Source: Chondrosia reniformis
Taxonomy: Eukaryota; Porifera; Demospongiae; Chondrillida; Chondrillidae
Reading direction: 5' to 3'
DNA length: 64,000 bases
Assembly (NCBI GenBank): GCA_947172415.1
Contig: OX359199.1
Coordinates: forward strand, 5,205,384 to 5,269,383
The notes under the pieces were generated by a model. The model had not been told where the DNA came from. It was given only the letters and a program-made list of their open reading frames with translations, and searched no databases. The translations under genes and the position numbers were made by a program. Below, piece after piece: positions 61,301 through 64,000 of the stretch (position 1 is the stretch's first letter; every line of letters starts with the position of its first letter).

Positions 61301-62880
61301 GTGGTCAAAAAGAGTGAATGTCTAAATACACAAACGAGCATGCTATGAATCACTTCAAAGACACTCTGTATATACGTACATACAGATGATGCCTATAGCC
61401 ACTTCAGTTTATGGATGCGGAGTTGTGATGCTTACCATCCATGAATGGGTCCAATCTGGCTGGAGACATCAGGAAATGGCGTCTCTGTCTTTCATGATAC
61501 TCATCATGTCTGTCACTTACTCGTTCCTTACGAGAACCTGCCATTGGATCCTCCTAAAATGATAACATAACCACAAGTGTTAGTATTAAGAGATGGACCT
61601 CTAGGCTAATTACATTACACTCCAAACAAACCAAAGCAAACATCACCAGTTCCTCTCACTTTCCACTCAGCAGGGCGCTCCAAGAGTGTACAAGGGCAGG
61701 ACAAGGGACAGTCAAGGGCAGGACAAGGGACAGTCAAGGGACAGTCAAGGGATAGTCAAGGGCAGGACAAGGGACAGTCAAGGGATAGTCAAGGGTAGGA
61801 CAAGGGACAGTCAAGGGCAGGACAAGGGACAGTCAAGGGACAGTCAAGGGATAGTCAAGGGTAGGACAAGGGACAGTCAAGGGACAGTCAAGGGATAGTC
61901 AAGGGTAGGACAAGGGACAGTCAAGGGACAGTCAAGGGATAGTCAAGGGTAGGACAAGGGACAGTCAAGGGTAGGACAAGGGACAGTCAAGGGATAGTCA
62001 AGGGTAGGACAAGGGACAGTCAAGGGTAGGACAAGGGACAGTCAAGGGCAGGACAAATATGTGTAAGGTGTGACTAAAGAACAACTCATAGTACAGTTGG
62101 CTCTAGTTAGGGTAAACAGAGCAATTGAATAGCATAGGGTGCAATCGCCATATAAAAGAGCTAACTCAAAGTGACACATCAGCACAACTTTTAACAATTA
62201 TACATTTATTAATGTACTCATACATCAGTACATATGTAATTATTTATACAGTACATATACGTACGTATGTATGCAACACATTATATCAAAAAGGAAAATA
62301 ACAAAAAAATAAAAATAGCATGTATTTACAGTGTTAGCATACTAACAAGGCTAAATACTTACATTCCCTGTTCCTTGGAAATCTTTCAGAACATCAGATG
62401 GCGCTGTGATGCTCTTTCCAGCGAGCTTTGATGAATAATCATCCTCTTCATCTTCATAATCTGTGGGTGGTATGGAGGTCAGGTATCCTTCGTAACGCCT
62501 AGAGAGGAAAGAAGGCATTACAGAAGTCTCAGGAAACATATTTATGTACTCACTTTGAAGATGGTGCATCGTAAATTTCCGAGTCGAAATGACCTTCTGT
62601 ACCTAGGCCAATCTGTAGGGTTACATTGGGCGATACGACTTCAAAGCAATAATAAACATATTTGGGACTTACCTGATCGCTTTTGGGTTCTTCTTGTGGC
62701 TTAGCTCGCTTTTCTTGATACTCCCTTATTTGCGCGTCCAGTTCTATGTGCAAACAAAATGGTGCCCAAGTAAATTCTCATTAAAAGTACAATTCATTTG
62801 TAACGTTAGCATAAATAATAGAAATGGGAGGAAAATAAGTATGTATTCTATCAGTTACCTTCTTGAGTGGTCGCTGCCAT
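47823..62880 (-). CDS. SF3B1: Splicing factor 3B subunit 1 (SF3b155)
   Basis: U2 snRNP component that clamps the branch site. Twenty-four exons (plus coordinates): 62859-62880, 62673-62743, 62554-62612, 62363-62498, 61436-61553, 60611-60684, 60132-60275, 59611-60055, 58468-59081, 56391-56560, 56146-56333, 55564-55709, 54292-54438, 53945-54070, 53677-53802, 51113-51208, 50868-51050, 50268-50360, 50094-50179, 49461-49646, 49060-49332, 48106-48322, 47971-48045 and 47823-47906, about 1292 aa (human 1304). The N-terminal third has RWDETP repeats, the phosphorylated ULM-type motifs that bind U2AF-homology proteins. The rest is HEAT repeats, nearly identical to human. Positions equal to human R625 (YVRNTTAR), K666 (RHTGIKI) and K700 (DEQQKVR) are conserved. 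Introns hold most of this region's repeats. Confidence 0.96.
48764..49022 (-). repeat. Dispersed repeat family, copy 5 (inverted)
   Basis: SF3B1 intron. Reads as the reverse complement of the 9621 copy: GGACTCACAGAAGATCAAGA, GATGAAGGGTGGAATTCC, TTTAGTTCCCTATAGG, AGCATGTAACA. Extra AAGATTCC-type units enlarge the purine-rich part. Confidence 0.9.
49336..49391. repeat. (AAAT)n microsatellite in an SF3B1 intron
   Basis: About 13 AATA/AAAT units with two interruptions, immediately upstream (minus strand) of an exon acceptor. Confidence 0.95.
49829..50093. repeat. 31-base minisatellite, 9 units, starting at an SF3B1 5' splice site
   Basis: On the minus strand the exon ends AACAG and the intron starts GTAAATGCACCACG. 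The unit is GTAAATGCACCACGCC plus TAACTTTGCTGACAG, so each unit junction recreates ACAG/GTAAAT. Eight of nine junctions keep CAGGTA; one reads CTACAT instead. Confidence 0.95.
51209..53676. other. Large SF3B1 intron (about 2.5 kb)
   Basis: The largest intron in the window. Contains a short 13-base tandem (ATCCAAACAGT type, about 51897-51935) and the 44-base minisatellite at its 3' end on the plus strand. No coding exon recognised. Confidence 0.6.
53240..53637. repeat. 44-base minisatellite, 9 copies, in an SF3B1 intron
   Basis: Units of TTAATGACTGGTTATATTAC then ATACAACATCTGTATACTGTCAACC. Variants GTACTACACATAG mark a subtype. Plus-strand open frame across it is a by-product. Confidence 0.96.
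54075..54262. repeat. (GATG/GGTG)n imperfect tetranucleotide array
   Basis: GATGGATGGGTGGATGGGTA-type repeats fill the short SF3B1 intron between exons 13 and 14. Confidence 0.95.
55735..55985. repeat. Tandem repeat near SF3B1 exon 12
   Basis: Units GTGTGACATGAGTGTGACAT plus GAGGGGATAGGG, about 6-8 imperfect copies of mixed length. Confidence 0.94.
56561..58467. other. SF3B1 intron 9 (about 1.9 kb) with a 95-base tandem repeat
   Basis: About 56696-56935 holds nearly three copies of a 95-base unit (CCTATGAGATTGGCCCAACC and CAACTGTAATACAGTTTGAT). The rest shows no recognised element. The end near the exon 9 donor is rich in TACGTA words. Confidence 0.75.
60352..60540 (-). repeat. Dispersed repeat family, copy 6 (inverted)
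   Basis: SF3B1 intron. CCAAGGACTCACTAAAGATC, GATGAAGGGTGGAATCCC, CTCACTAGGTTTAGTTCCC and TATAGGCCTTTACTCT align with the inverted form of the other copies. Confidence 0.9.
61690..62055. repeat. Short-unit minisatellite (GGACAAGGGACAGTCAAG type)
   Basis: Mixed 9-10-base units GGGACAGTCAA, GGGATAGTCAA and GGGCAGGACAA or GGGTAGGACAA in higher-order arrangement, inside an SF3B1 intron. Confidence 0.96.
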
Positions 62881-62987
62881 CGTTGAAGTACACTGAACGT
62901 GACGAGCTCACGAAAAAATGGCAGTTCACATTAAACGTTGTATGTACGTAGTCCTAACGCAAACGCAGTAAGAGGGAAAATCCCTCT
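62881..62987. promoter_or_regulatory. Shared 5' region of SF3B1 and COX16-GTF2A2
   Basis: One hundred and seven bases separate the divergent start codons. Contains TGACGAGCTCACG (CRE-like) and AAAATGGC. If COX16 and GTF2A2 are co-transcribed this is the only 5' region serving three genes. Confidence 0.55.
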
Positions 62988-63263
62988 ATGATCGGAAGCA
63001 GAAGGTTCTTCAAATTTGGGCTCCCTCTCATTCTCTTTGTCGTGCTAGGCTCTTTCGGTCTATCCGAGTTCACCTCTCTTAGAGTGGAGAAAAGGGACGA
63101 AAAGAATCGCATGTTAACAGCCGAAGAAACATTAAAGTTTCAGAAAAAGGTACAAAAGGTCGAAATTGAACAAGAATTTGAAGACATTAAATCTAAGGTC
63201 AACATTGATCAGTGGGAGAATAAAAGAGGACCACGCCCTTGGGAGACCGATAGCAAGCCATGA
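62988..63263 (+). CDS. COX16: COX16, cytochrome c oxidase assembly protein
   Basis: A small inner-mitochondrial-membrane protein needed to mature COX2 within complex IV. Intronless, 91 aa from the ATG at 62988. RRFFKFGLPLILFVVLGSFG is a basic start plus the single membrane helix, followed by LSEFTSLR. The C-terminal NKRGPRPWE is the family signature (human N-I-R-G-P-R-P-W-E). The stop TGA (63261-63263) overlaps the GTF2A2 start: the sequence is ATGA. No intron, poly(A) signal or spacer separates the two frames. Confidence 0.92.
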   Translation: MIGSRRFFKFGLPLILFVVLGSFGLSEFTSLRVEKRDEKNRMLTAEETLKFQKKVQKVEIEQEFEDIKSKVNIDQWENKRGPRPWETDSKP

Positions 63264-63592
63264 GTTATCAAATTTACCGCGAAACCACCCTAGGAACAAC
63301 TCTACAGGACACGGTCGACTATCTTGTGCAAACACAGCAAATTCCTCCTTCACTGGCAGCCAAGATCTACACCCAGTTCGACAAAAGCATGAGTGGAGCC
63401 TTTGATAAACATGCCCGTAACACGCGCATGACTTTCAAAGGGCAGCTGGACACATATCGCTACTGTGACAATGTTTGGACTTGCATACTGACAGACACGG
63501 AATTCAGAGAAAGTAGCGACATTTTGAAAACCTCAAAAATCAAAATAGTTGCCTGTGATGCTCGGGATGCCAGAGCCCCAGCCCCAGAATAA
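63260..63592 (+). CDS. GTF2A2: TFIIA gamma subunit
   Basis: The small TFIIA subunit, which stabilises TBP on the TATA box. Intronless, 110 aa (human 109). YQIYRETTLGTTLQDTVDYL forms the N-terminal four-helix part, FKGQLDTYRYCDNVWTCIL and KIKIVACDARD the beta-barrel. The frame is +1... relative to COX16, starting on the A four bases before the end of the COX16 frame. The only nearby AG dinucleotides that could accept a spliced leader (63252-63257) lie inside COX16 codons. AATAAA at 63588-63593 overlaps its own stop codon. Confidence 0.95.
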   Translation: MSYQIYRETTLGTTLQDTVDYLVQTQQIPPSLAAKIYTQFDKSMSGAFDKHARNTRMTFKGQLDTYRYCDNVWTCILTDTEFRESSDILKTSKIKIVACDARDARAPAPE

Positions 63593-63674: not shown

Positions 63675-63780
63675 TTAGTCTGATGCAGTTGCCTGTTTCT
63701 TGGACTTTGCACTTCCCCACTGAATGTAATTAGGTTTTGTTGAGGCAATGTACTCATCCACCAAATCACTGACAATCTCC
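63675..63780 (-). CDS. Last exon of an unidentified gene
   Basis: A terminal exon with acceptor CCATTCTAG on the minus strand encodes EIVSDLVDEYIASTKPNYIQ then WGSAKSKKQATASD and a stop (63675-63677). An AATAAA follows the stop at once on that strand. The residues look like a real, conserved C terminus with a basic tail, but I cannot name the family. Its stop is 82 bases from the GTF2A2 stop. The rest of the gene lies beyond the window or in the AT-rich stretch after 63781, where I saw no further exon. Confidence 0.6.
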
Positions 63781-64000
63781 CTAGAATGGAACAGACAATT
63801 TTGGCTAAAAATTGACAGCAATGCCATCAAATGTATGGTCTACCATTCCATAGGTGTATAACAATATCTGATATGGGAATGGAGACCTAGGTACATGCAG
63901 TATATACACATACTTCTTTAATTATTCCAAGTCGGCACAAAAATGGCTACCCTATTTTTATATAATAGTAGCACATATCCTCATAACATGTACATGAAAG

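Follow-up and report, generated by a model that had tools for sequence, protein, structure and literature searches.

The Drosophila genes sloth1 and sloth2 (CG32736-CG42308) form a bicistronic pair for which reporters support leaky scanning, and the pair is similarly arranged in choanoflagellate, sea squirt and lamprey (PMC9681215). The second ORF of MOCS2 is also reported to be reached by leaky scanning (PMC3923131). Human bicistrons, described under the term gene symbiosis, comprise 14 transcripts and include STREMI-SLC35A4 (PMC13303939). Green algae contain two curated sets of bicistronic genes in which the median length of ORF1 is 357 and 291 nt and the median spacer is 183 and 40 nt (PMC11892635). 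Among the dicistronic genes of Drosophila, 18 gene pairs have coding sequence in common that is translated in two frames; of the 36 genes involved, 26 lie on polycistronic transcripts, and most of the overlaps are shorter than 40 nt (PMC4528330). The TURBS of calicivirus and influenza B combine an overlapping stop and start with a UGGGA shortly upstream; this sequence forms the core of their motif 1 and can pair with the tip of 18S rRNA helix 26 (PMC5972666). Two further TURBS motifs, 2 and 2*, are complementary and present motif 1.

The pair described here is located in the kidney sponge Chondrosia reniformis and was analysed within a 64-kb stretch (the window) covering positions 5205384-5269383 of chromosome 11. 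The genome searched contains 117,379,552 bases in 15 contigs, and the assembly odChoReni1.1 is reported with a total of 117.37 Mb and a chromosome 11 of 7.63 Mb (PMC12181767). The first gene of the pair encodes COX16 and the second encodes GTF2A2, the gamma subunit of TFIIA (Table 1). The COX16 product covers the full profile of PF14138 (1-79 of 79, E 2.7e-30), and the GTF2A2 product matches nearly all of both TFIIA_gamma_N (E 3.4e-19) and TFIIA_gamma_C (E 2.7e-19). GTF2A2 can be aligned to solved structures of TFIIA subunit 2 from the first methionine of both, and the 104 residues aligned contain a single gap; the chain in these structures is presumably human. The names, coordinates and complete, intronless state that the initial annotation gave to both genes are confirmed by the frames, the Pfam matches and the structure alignment, and so is the overlap of the COX16 TGA with the GTF2A2 ATG; the sponge origin that it assumed is likewise right. 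A profile search of the 117.4 Mb genome (E <= 0.001), in which only the best candidates are scored, found a single match each for the COX16 family (PF14138) and the N-terminal TFIIA-gamma family (PF02268), both at this locus. A search with GTF2A2 for sponge DNA in which the overlap might be kept gave 17 pattern matches in prokaryote contigs and four in viral contigs, none of them a relative. The pair is composed of two complete, conserved and unrelated frames on the same strand with no spacer between them, and is probably a bicistronic gene.

Table 1. Features of the COX16-GTF2A2 locus (window positions) and of two other close gene pairs in the C. reniformis genome
Feature	Position	Strand	Remarks
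SF3B1, first coding exon	62859..62880	-	As predicted; gene extends toward lower coordinates
Space between SF3B1 and COX16 start codons	62881..62987	.	107 bp; candidate shared promoter
17-codon upstream frame	62918..62971	+	A at -3, G at +4 (strong context)
AGAGGGAAAATCCCTCT, perfect 7-bp inverted repeat	62971..62987	+	AGAGGGA-AAA-TCCCTCT; last base adjoins COX16 ATG
COX16 coding sequence, upstream cistron	62988..63263	+	Intronless, 91 aa, ATG 62988 to TGA 63263
COX16 AUG	62988..62990	+	U at -3, A at +4
Met42 AUG, sole internal AUG of COX16	63111..63113	+	In frame; C at -3, U at +4
UGGGA	63213..63217	+	First base 47 nt before GTF2A2 AUG; Trp-Glu codons
AATAAA within COX16	63219..63224	+	Before the COX16 stop; also in one-mismatch TATA-like AATAAAAG
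UGGGA	63240..63244	+	First base 20 nt before GTF2A2 AUG; Trp-Glu codons of PRPWE
ATGA, GTF2A2 start and COX16 stop (TGA)	63260..63263	+	Four-base overlap
GTF2A2 (TFIIA gamma) coding sequence, downstream cistron	63260..63592	+	Intronless, 110 aa, stop TAA
AATAAA over GTF2A2 stop codon	63588..63593	+	First canonical poly(A) signal after COX16 stop
Gamma-tubulin, last coding exon	63675..63785	-	Approximate; convergent
SMIM4/C12orf73 (sloth1/sloth2)	C8:5577044-5577604	-	Adjacent on one strand
MOCS2A-like/likely MOCS2B	C4:292474-292784 and upstream on that strand	-	MOCS2A-like end (ThiS), then MoaE

This arrangement resembles sloth1-sloth2, in which a small mitochondrial protein is encoded first, the ORF1 start is weak, ORF2 lies in another register and there is almost no spacer (PMC9681215). 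The two sloth proteins are, however, proposed to be paralogs acting in a single pathway, and COX16 and GTF2A2 have no such relation. As in MOCS2, two conserved proteins are encoded by neighbouring frames of one animal gene, but MOCS2A and MOCS2B are subunits of one enzyme. The human MOCS2A and MOCS2B frames exhibit a long overlap. STREMI-SLC35A4 likewise has a mitochondrial microprotein encoded first and, after it, a conserved protein that is unrelated to it and has an intronless coding sequence, but it is a vertebrate pair in which SLC35A4 translation is stress-responsive, and the main text of that human survey does not mention COX16 or GTF2A2 (PMC13303939). The green-algal sets (PMC11892635) and the Drosophila two-frame overlaps (PMC4528330) have transcript support, whereas the sponge pair and its overlap are known from sequence. 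No report of a COX16-GTF2A2 pair was present among the matches listed in the literature on operons, trans-splicing and bicistronic genes of sponges; a search for both gene names listed two papers that contain them together. The arrangement is rare in animals, though with known precedents.

The pair is flanked by 107 bp upstream, up to the divergent SF3B1, and by 82 bp downstream, up to a convergent tubulin gene. The SF3B1 ATG begins at 62880 in the opposite direction to COX16 and its product matches Pfam SF3b1 (E 6.2e-9). The stop codon of the tubulin gene is at 63675 and its predicted upstream exons, which match Tubulin in Pfam (E 1.3e-50), extend to 66954; from similarity, we take this gene to be gamma-tubulin and the last exon, with the C-terminus, to be part of it. 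Genes were predicted with our own codon HMM; its refined run called 90 genes, and 309 introns were kept. This gene finder is rough: it placed a false first exon on COX16, did not call GTF2A2 and broke the C-terminus of gamma-tubulin. Rfam searches at gathering scores gave no matches in the whole 64-kb window. A short tandem repeat with a unit like aagggtaggacaagggacagtc is found at 62000-62055.

The ATGA junction had been read as the mark of bacterial-type translational coupling, which the wider sample does not support. Within 274,616 bp of genome (200 kb of C1, and the window extended by 10,616 bp), ATGA occurred in four of 36 listed same-strand ORF pairings, this junction included, where both ORFs were at least 70 aa, the gap was -30 to +99 and pairs with several ATGs were counted repeatedly. 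Among the six ORFs of the other three ATGA pairs, a Pfam match (NACHT) was found in one and never on both sides of a junction (E <= 0.01; one of the six was scanned over 108 of its 159 aa). The first bases of GTF2A2 are ATGAGT, and of the two registers other than its own, one brings any upstream frame to a stop at this TGA. ATGA alone is weak evidence for coupling because it recurs in the sample and arises by default from ATGAGT, and it was rejected as a coupling signature. What sets the pair apart is the completeness and conservation of both genes, and not the ATGA junction by itself. The overlap may be best seen as an end point of spacer loss, in which the GTF2A2 start lends COX16 its stop. 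The pair is better read as a further case of the known bicistronic genes of animals than as a bacterial-type operon.

The space between SF3B1 and COX16 exhibits an observed/expected CpG ratio of 1.55, compared to 0.82 in COX16 and 0.68 in GTF2A2, and is a probable bidirectional promoter that would join a splicing factor (SF3B1), a respiratory assembly factor (COX16) and TFIIA. The confinement of the high CpG ratio to this shared space, and its absence from COX16, is consistent with a bicistron. If transcription starts within the space, the COX16 leader is at most 107 nt. The 17-codon upstream frame finishes 16 bases short of the COX16 AUG and is part of the mRNA only if the transcription start precedes 62918. 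We speculate that ribosomes finishing this frame would be likely to skip COX16 and restart lower, perhaps at GTF2A2, and that the choice of start site around 62918 could then select the cistron used. The inverted repeat AGAGGGAAAATCCCTCT that adjoins the COX16 start was found once in the genome as an exact 17-mer, and at five places with one mismatch. The predicted fold of 62960-63000 has an energy of -10.5 kcal/mol (z -2.16), which was equalled or bettered by seven of 200 shuffles.

There is no AATAAA or ATTAAA from the COX16 stop to 63588, and of the 13 poly(A) hexamers tried, only the weak variant GATAAA (63404) occurs in that interval. Canonical signals thus give the first frame no separate 3' end, although GATAAA could provide COX16 with one of its own, which would count against a shared mRNA. 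Cleavage 10-30 bases past the AATAAA at 63219 would take off the COX16 stop codon. Because the first canonical signal is the one at 63588, a COX16 mRNA that uses an ordinary poly(A) signal includes GTF2A2, whichever promoter GTF2A2 may have. The COX16 mRNA therefore probably includes the GTF2A2 frame as well.

On such an mRNA, counted from the COX16 start onward, two AUGs precede the GTF2A2 start, that of COX16 and that of Met42. Both lack a purine at -3 and neither is out of frame, while the GTF2A2 AUG has G at -3. By the general A/G rule, the context of ORF1 is weaker than that of ORF2. In its short ORF1 (276 nt for COX16) and weak ORF1 AUG context the locus is similar to green-algal bicistrons, which also have few AUGs before ORF2 (PMC11892635). 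Transcription would begin in the space common with the divergent SF3B1, and the transcript would run to the AATAAA that spans the stop codon of GTF2A2, placing both frames in the COX16 mRNA. COX16 would be translated from the first AUG. Some scanning 40S subunits would pass this weak start and the weak in-frame Met42 AUG, and would initiate GTF2A2 at the next AUG. We consider it about an even chance (roughly 0.5) that the locus is one bicistronic unit with COX16 first and GTF2A2 produced mainly by leaky scanning.

Several observations limit this explanation. The strong upstream AUG would intervene on any mRNA that begins ahead of 62918, and leaky scanning as the sole source might yield too little of a general transcription factor. 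The number of internal AUGs in COX16 (one, against 2.3 expected) is not significantly low (P 0.16), and AUG depletion was rejected as proof of leaky scanning. The U at -3 is weak by the general rule; a start-context calibration for the species itself was set aside as too noisy to use, and gives leaky scanning no support. Among 82 starts predicted without a purine prior, 49% have a purine at -3, with 55-62% in three smaller subsets, all of these being noisy figures, as is the one in seven left by a stricter start filter. Gene-finder runs that included a prior for a purine at -3 gave 66 of 90 starts, which is circular. Three starts that we trust through their conserved N-termini, those of GTF2A2, SF3B1 (A) and an EHD-like gene (G), have a purine at -3, and the proposed MOCS2B start has C.

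The same genome contains SMIM4-C12orf73 and, less surely, MOCS2A-MOCS2B as close pairs, which is in favour of a bicistron at the COX16 locus. SMIM4 (PF15114, E 1.7e-10) and C12orf73 (PF14990, E 2.1e-16) each have one match in the genome, and the matched stretches are 351 bases apart. Removal of one intron, placed by our own reading, raises the SMIM4 score from 47.6 to 64.5 bits (profile 17-63 of 67). With this intron removed, the SMIM4 stop is followed by 32 nt to the first C12orf73 AUG or 53 nt to the second, which corresponds to profile position 1. These spacers, and that of 5 nt in Drosophila, are unlike the overlap of COX16 and GTF2A2. The SMIM4 AUG has U at -3, as in COX16, but the spliced SMIM4 frame contains two out-of-frame AUGs, so this control pair is not AUG-poor like COX16, which counts against leaky scanning. 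For MOCS2B, there are two separate matches to MoaE, one over profile positions 36-80 (E 1.5e-9), which contains one flagged TGA, and another over 81-113 (E 2.3e-6). The proposed first exon matches MoaE 1-28 weakly (13.6 bits, E 0.076, cut-off 23.4), and a comparison of it with solved structures gave no MOCS2 match, returning two chains of an unrelated protein (E 0.13). The last 28 residues of the MOCS2A-like frame score 20.4 bits against ThiS, below the cut-off of 22.5, and the frame ends in GG, as MoaD-like proteins do. The proposed MOCS2B start is 31 nt past the MOCS2A-like stop, and a bicistronic MOCS2A-MOCS2B layout with this spacing is likely in this demosponge. The initial annotation had overlooked these pairs, as well as the lack of a canonical poly(A) signal from the COX16 stop to 63588 and the start contexts suited to leaky scanning.

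The main rival, second after leaky scanning, is a promoter inside COX16, which we regard as possible but distinctly less probable. The transcripts would then be nested: the COX16 mRNA would span both frames, and the GTF2A2 protein would be produced from a shorter mRNA with the same 3' end. The initial annotation stated that there is no room for a separate core promoter; this stands for a promoter between the two genes and does not extend to the COX16 coding sequence, where the annotation itself counted a promoter among its options and where one-mismatch TATA-like words are found at 63151 and 63219. By the 30-nt rule for the distance from TATA to the transcription start, the word at 63219 would give a leader of only ~10 nt. 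No convincing core promoter was found within COX16, and the CpG ratio there is ordinary when compared to the intergenic space. Overlap is tolerated in compact sponge genomes, with 1,168 overlapping head-to-tail cases in Amphimedon (PMC4773876), and just 45 of 159 dicistronic loci in Drosophila appear to make both proteins solely through a dicistronic mRNA (PMC4528330), both of which speak for nested transcripts.

Coupled termination-reinitiation is an unlikely route to GTF2A2. In this route, known from caliciviruses, UGGGA would pair with 18S rRNA and hold some 40S subunits after the TGA, and these would restart at the AUG that overlaps it. The junction does combine an AUGA stop-restart with two UGGGA, at -47 and -20, where 0.058 are expected per 60 nt, which is the layout of viral TURBS (PMC5972666). 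Unlike the viral motifs, both copies fall in Trp-Glu codons, one of them in the PRPWE stretch of COX16, so that protein constraint may explain them, and the 18S pairing is putative. Two 18S words, which we take to be conserved in animals, gave no matches in the assembly, either exact or with up to two mismatches (one word search each); the rDNA array may be missing from the assembly. The fold of the junction exhibits no excess structure (z -0.09). Reinitiation was low on CASQ2, a human mRNA that was tested, with the ORF2 product 82-fold below that of ORF1 (PMC3923131). The more specific proposal of a virus-like stop-restart in a host pair, in which the Trp-Glu codons of COX16 double as UGGGA ribosome tethers, is more doubtful still. 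If stop-restart were true, each GTF2A2 molecule so made would need one finished COX16 molecule, and the amount of a general transcription factor would be tied to that of a respiratory-chain assembly factor.

Separation of the cistrons by splicing is very improbable, whether a spliced leader is joined in trans ahead of GTF2A2 or COX16 is removed with an intron in cis that begins at a donor at 62968. This donor (gca|GTAAGA) is at the 17th percentile of predicted donors, and a trans-spliced leader is reported in the glass sponge Aphrocallistes vastus (PMC10282587). However, all six possible exon starts at 63219-63258 score below every one of the 309 predicted acceptors, on scores that are based on predicted introns rather than transcripts. 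None of the six is a usable acceptor just before the GTF2A2 AUG, which agrees with the initial annotation that a trans-splice acceptor is weakly supported, and which favours leaky scanning on a bicistronic mRNA. The best acceptors within COX16 are at 63049 (20th percentile) and 63002 (19th percentile), and use of the former would keep Met42 ahead of GTF2A2. No demosponge spliced leader was reported among the literature matches listed. An assembly or consensus error at the junction, hiding a normal spacer or one fused frame, is barely credible: no sign in its support was seen, both frames fill their family profiles with GTF2A2 beginning at the start of its family, and the consensus QV of the primary assembly is 69.8 (PMC12181767).

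The interest of the bicistronic reading rests on which genes are paired, on their overlap of four bases and on how deeply sponges branch among animals. If it is true, a nuclear mRNA of a non-bilaterian animal carries a general transcription factor as its second translated frame, and GTF2A2 is joined to an unrelated mitochondrial factor by the overlap. COX16-GTF2A2 is a small, clean locus at which leaky scanning, internal promoters and stop-restart can be distinguished. Together with sloth1-sloth2 and probably MOCS2, the pair would, if the reading holds, suggest an early origin of bicistronic genes in animals and their routine use there.
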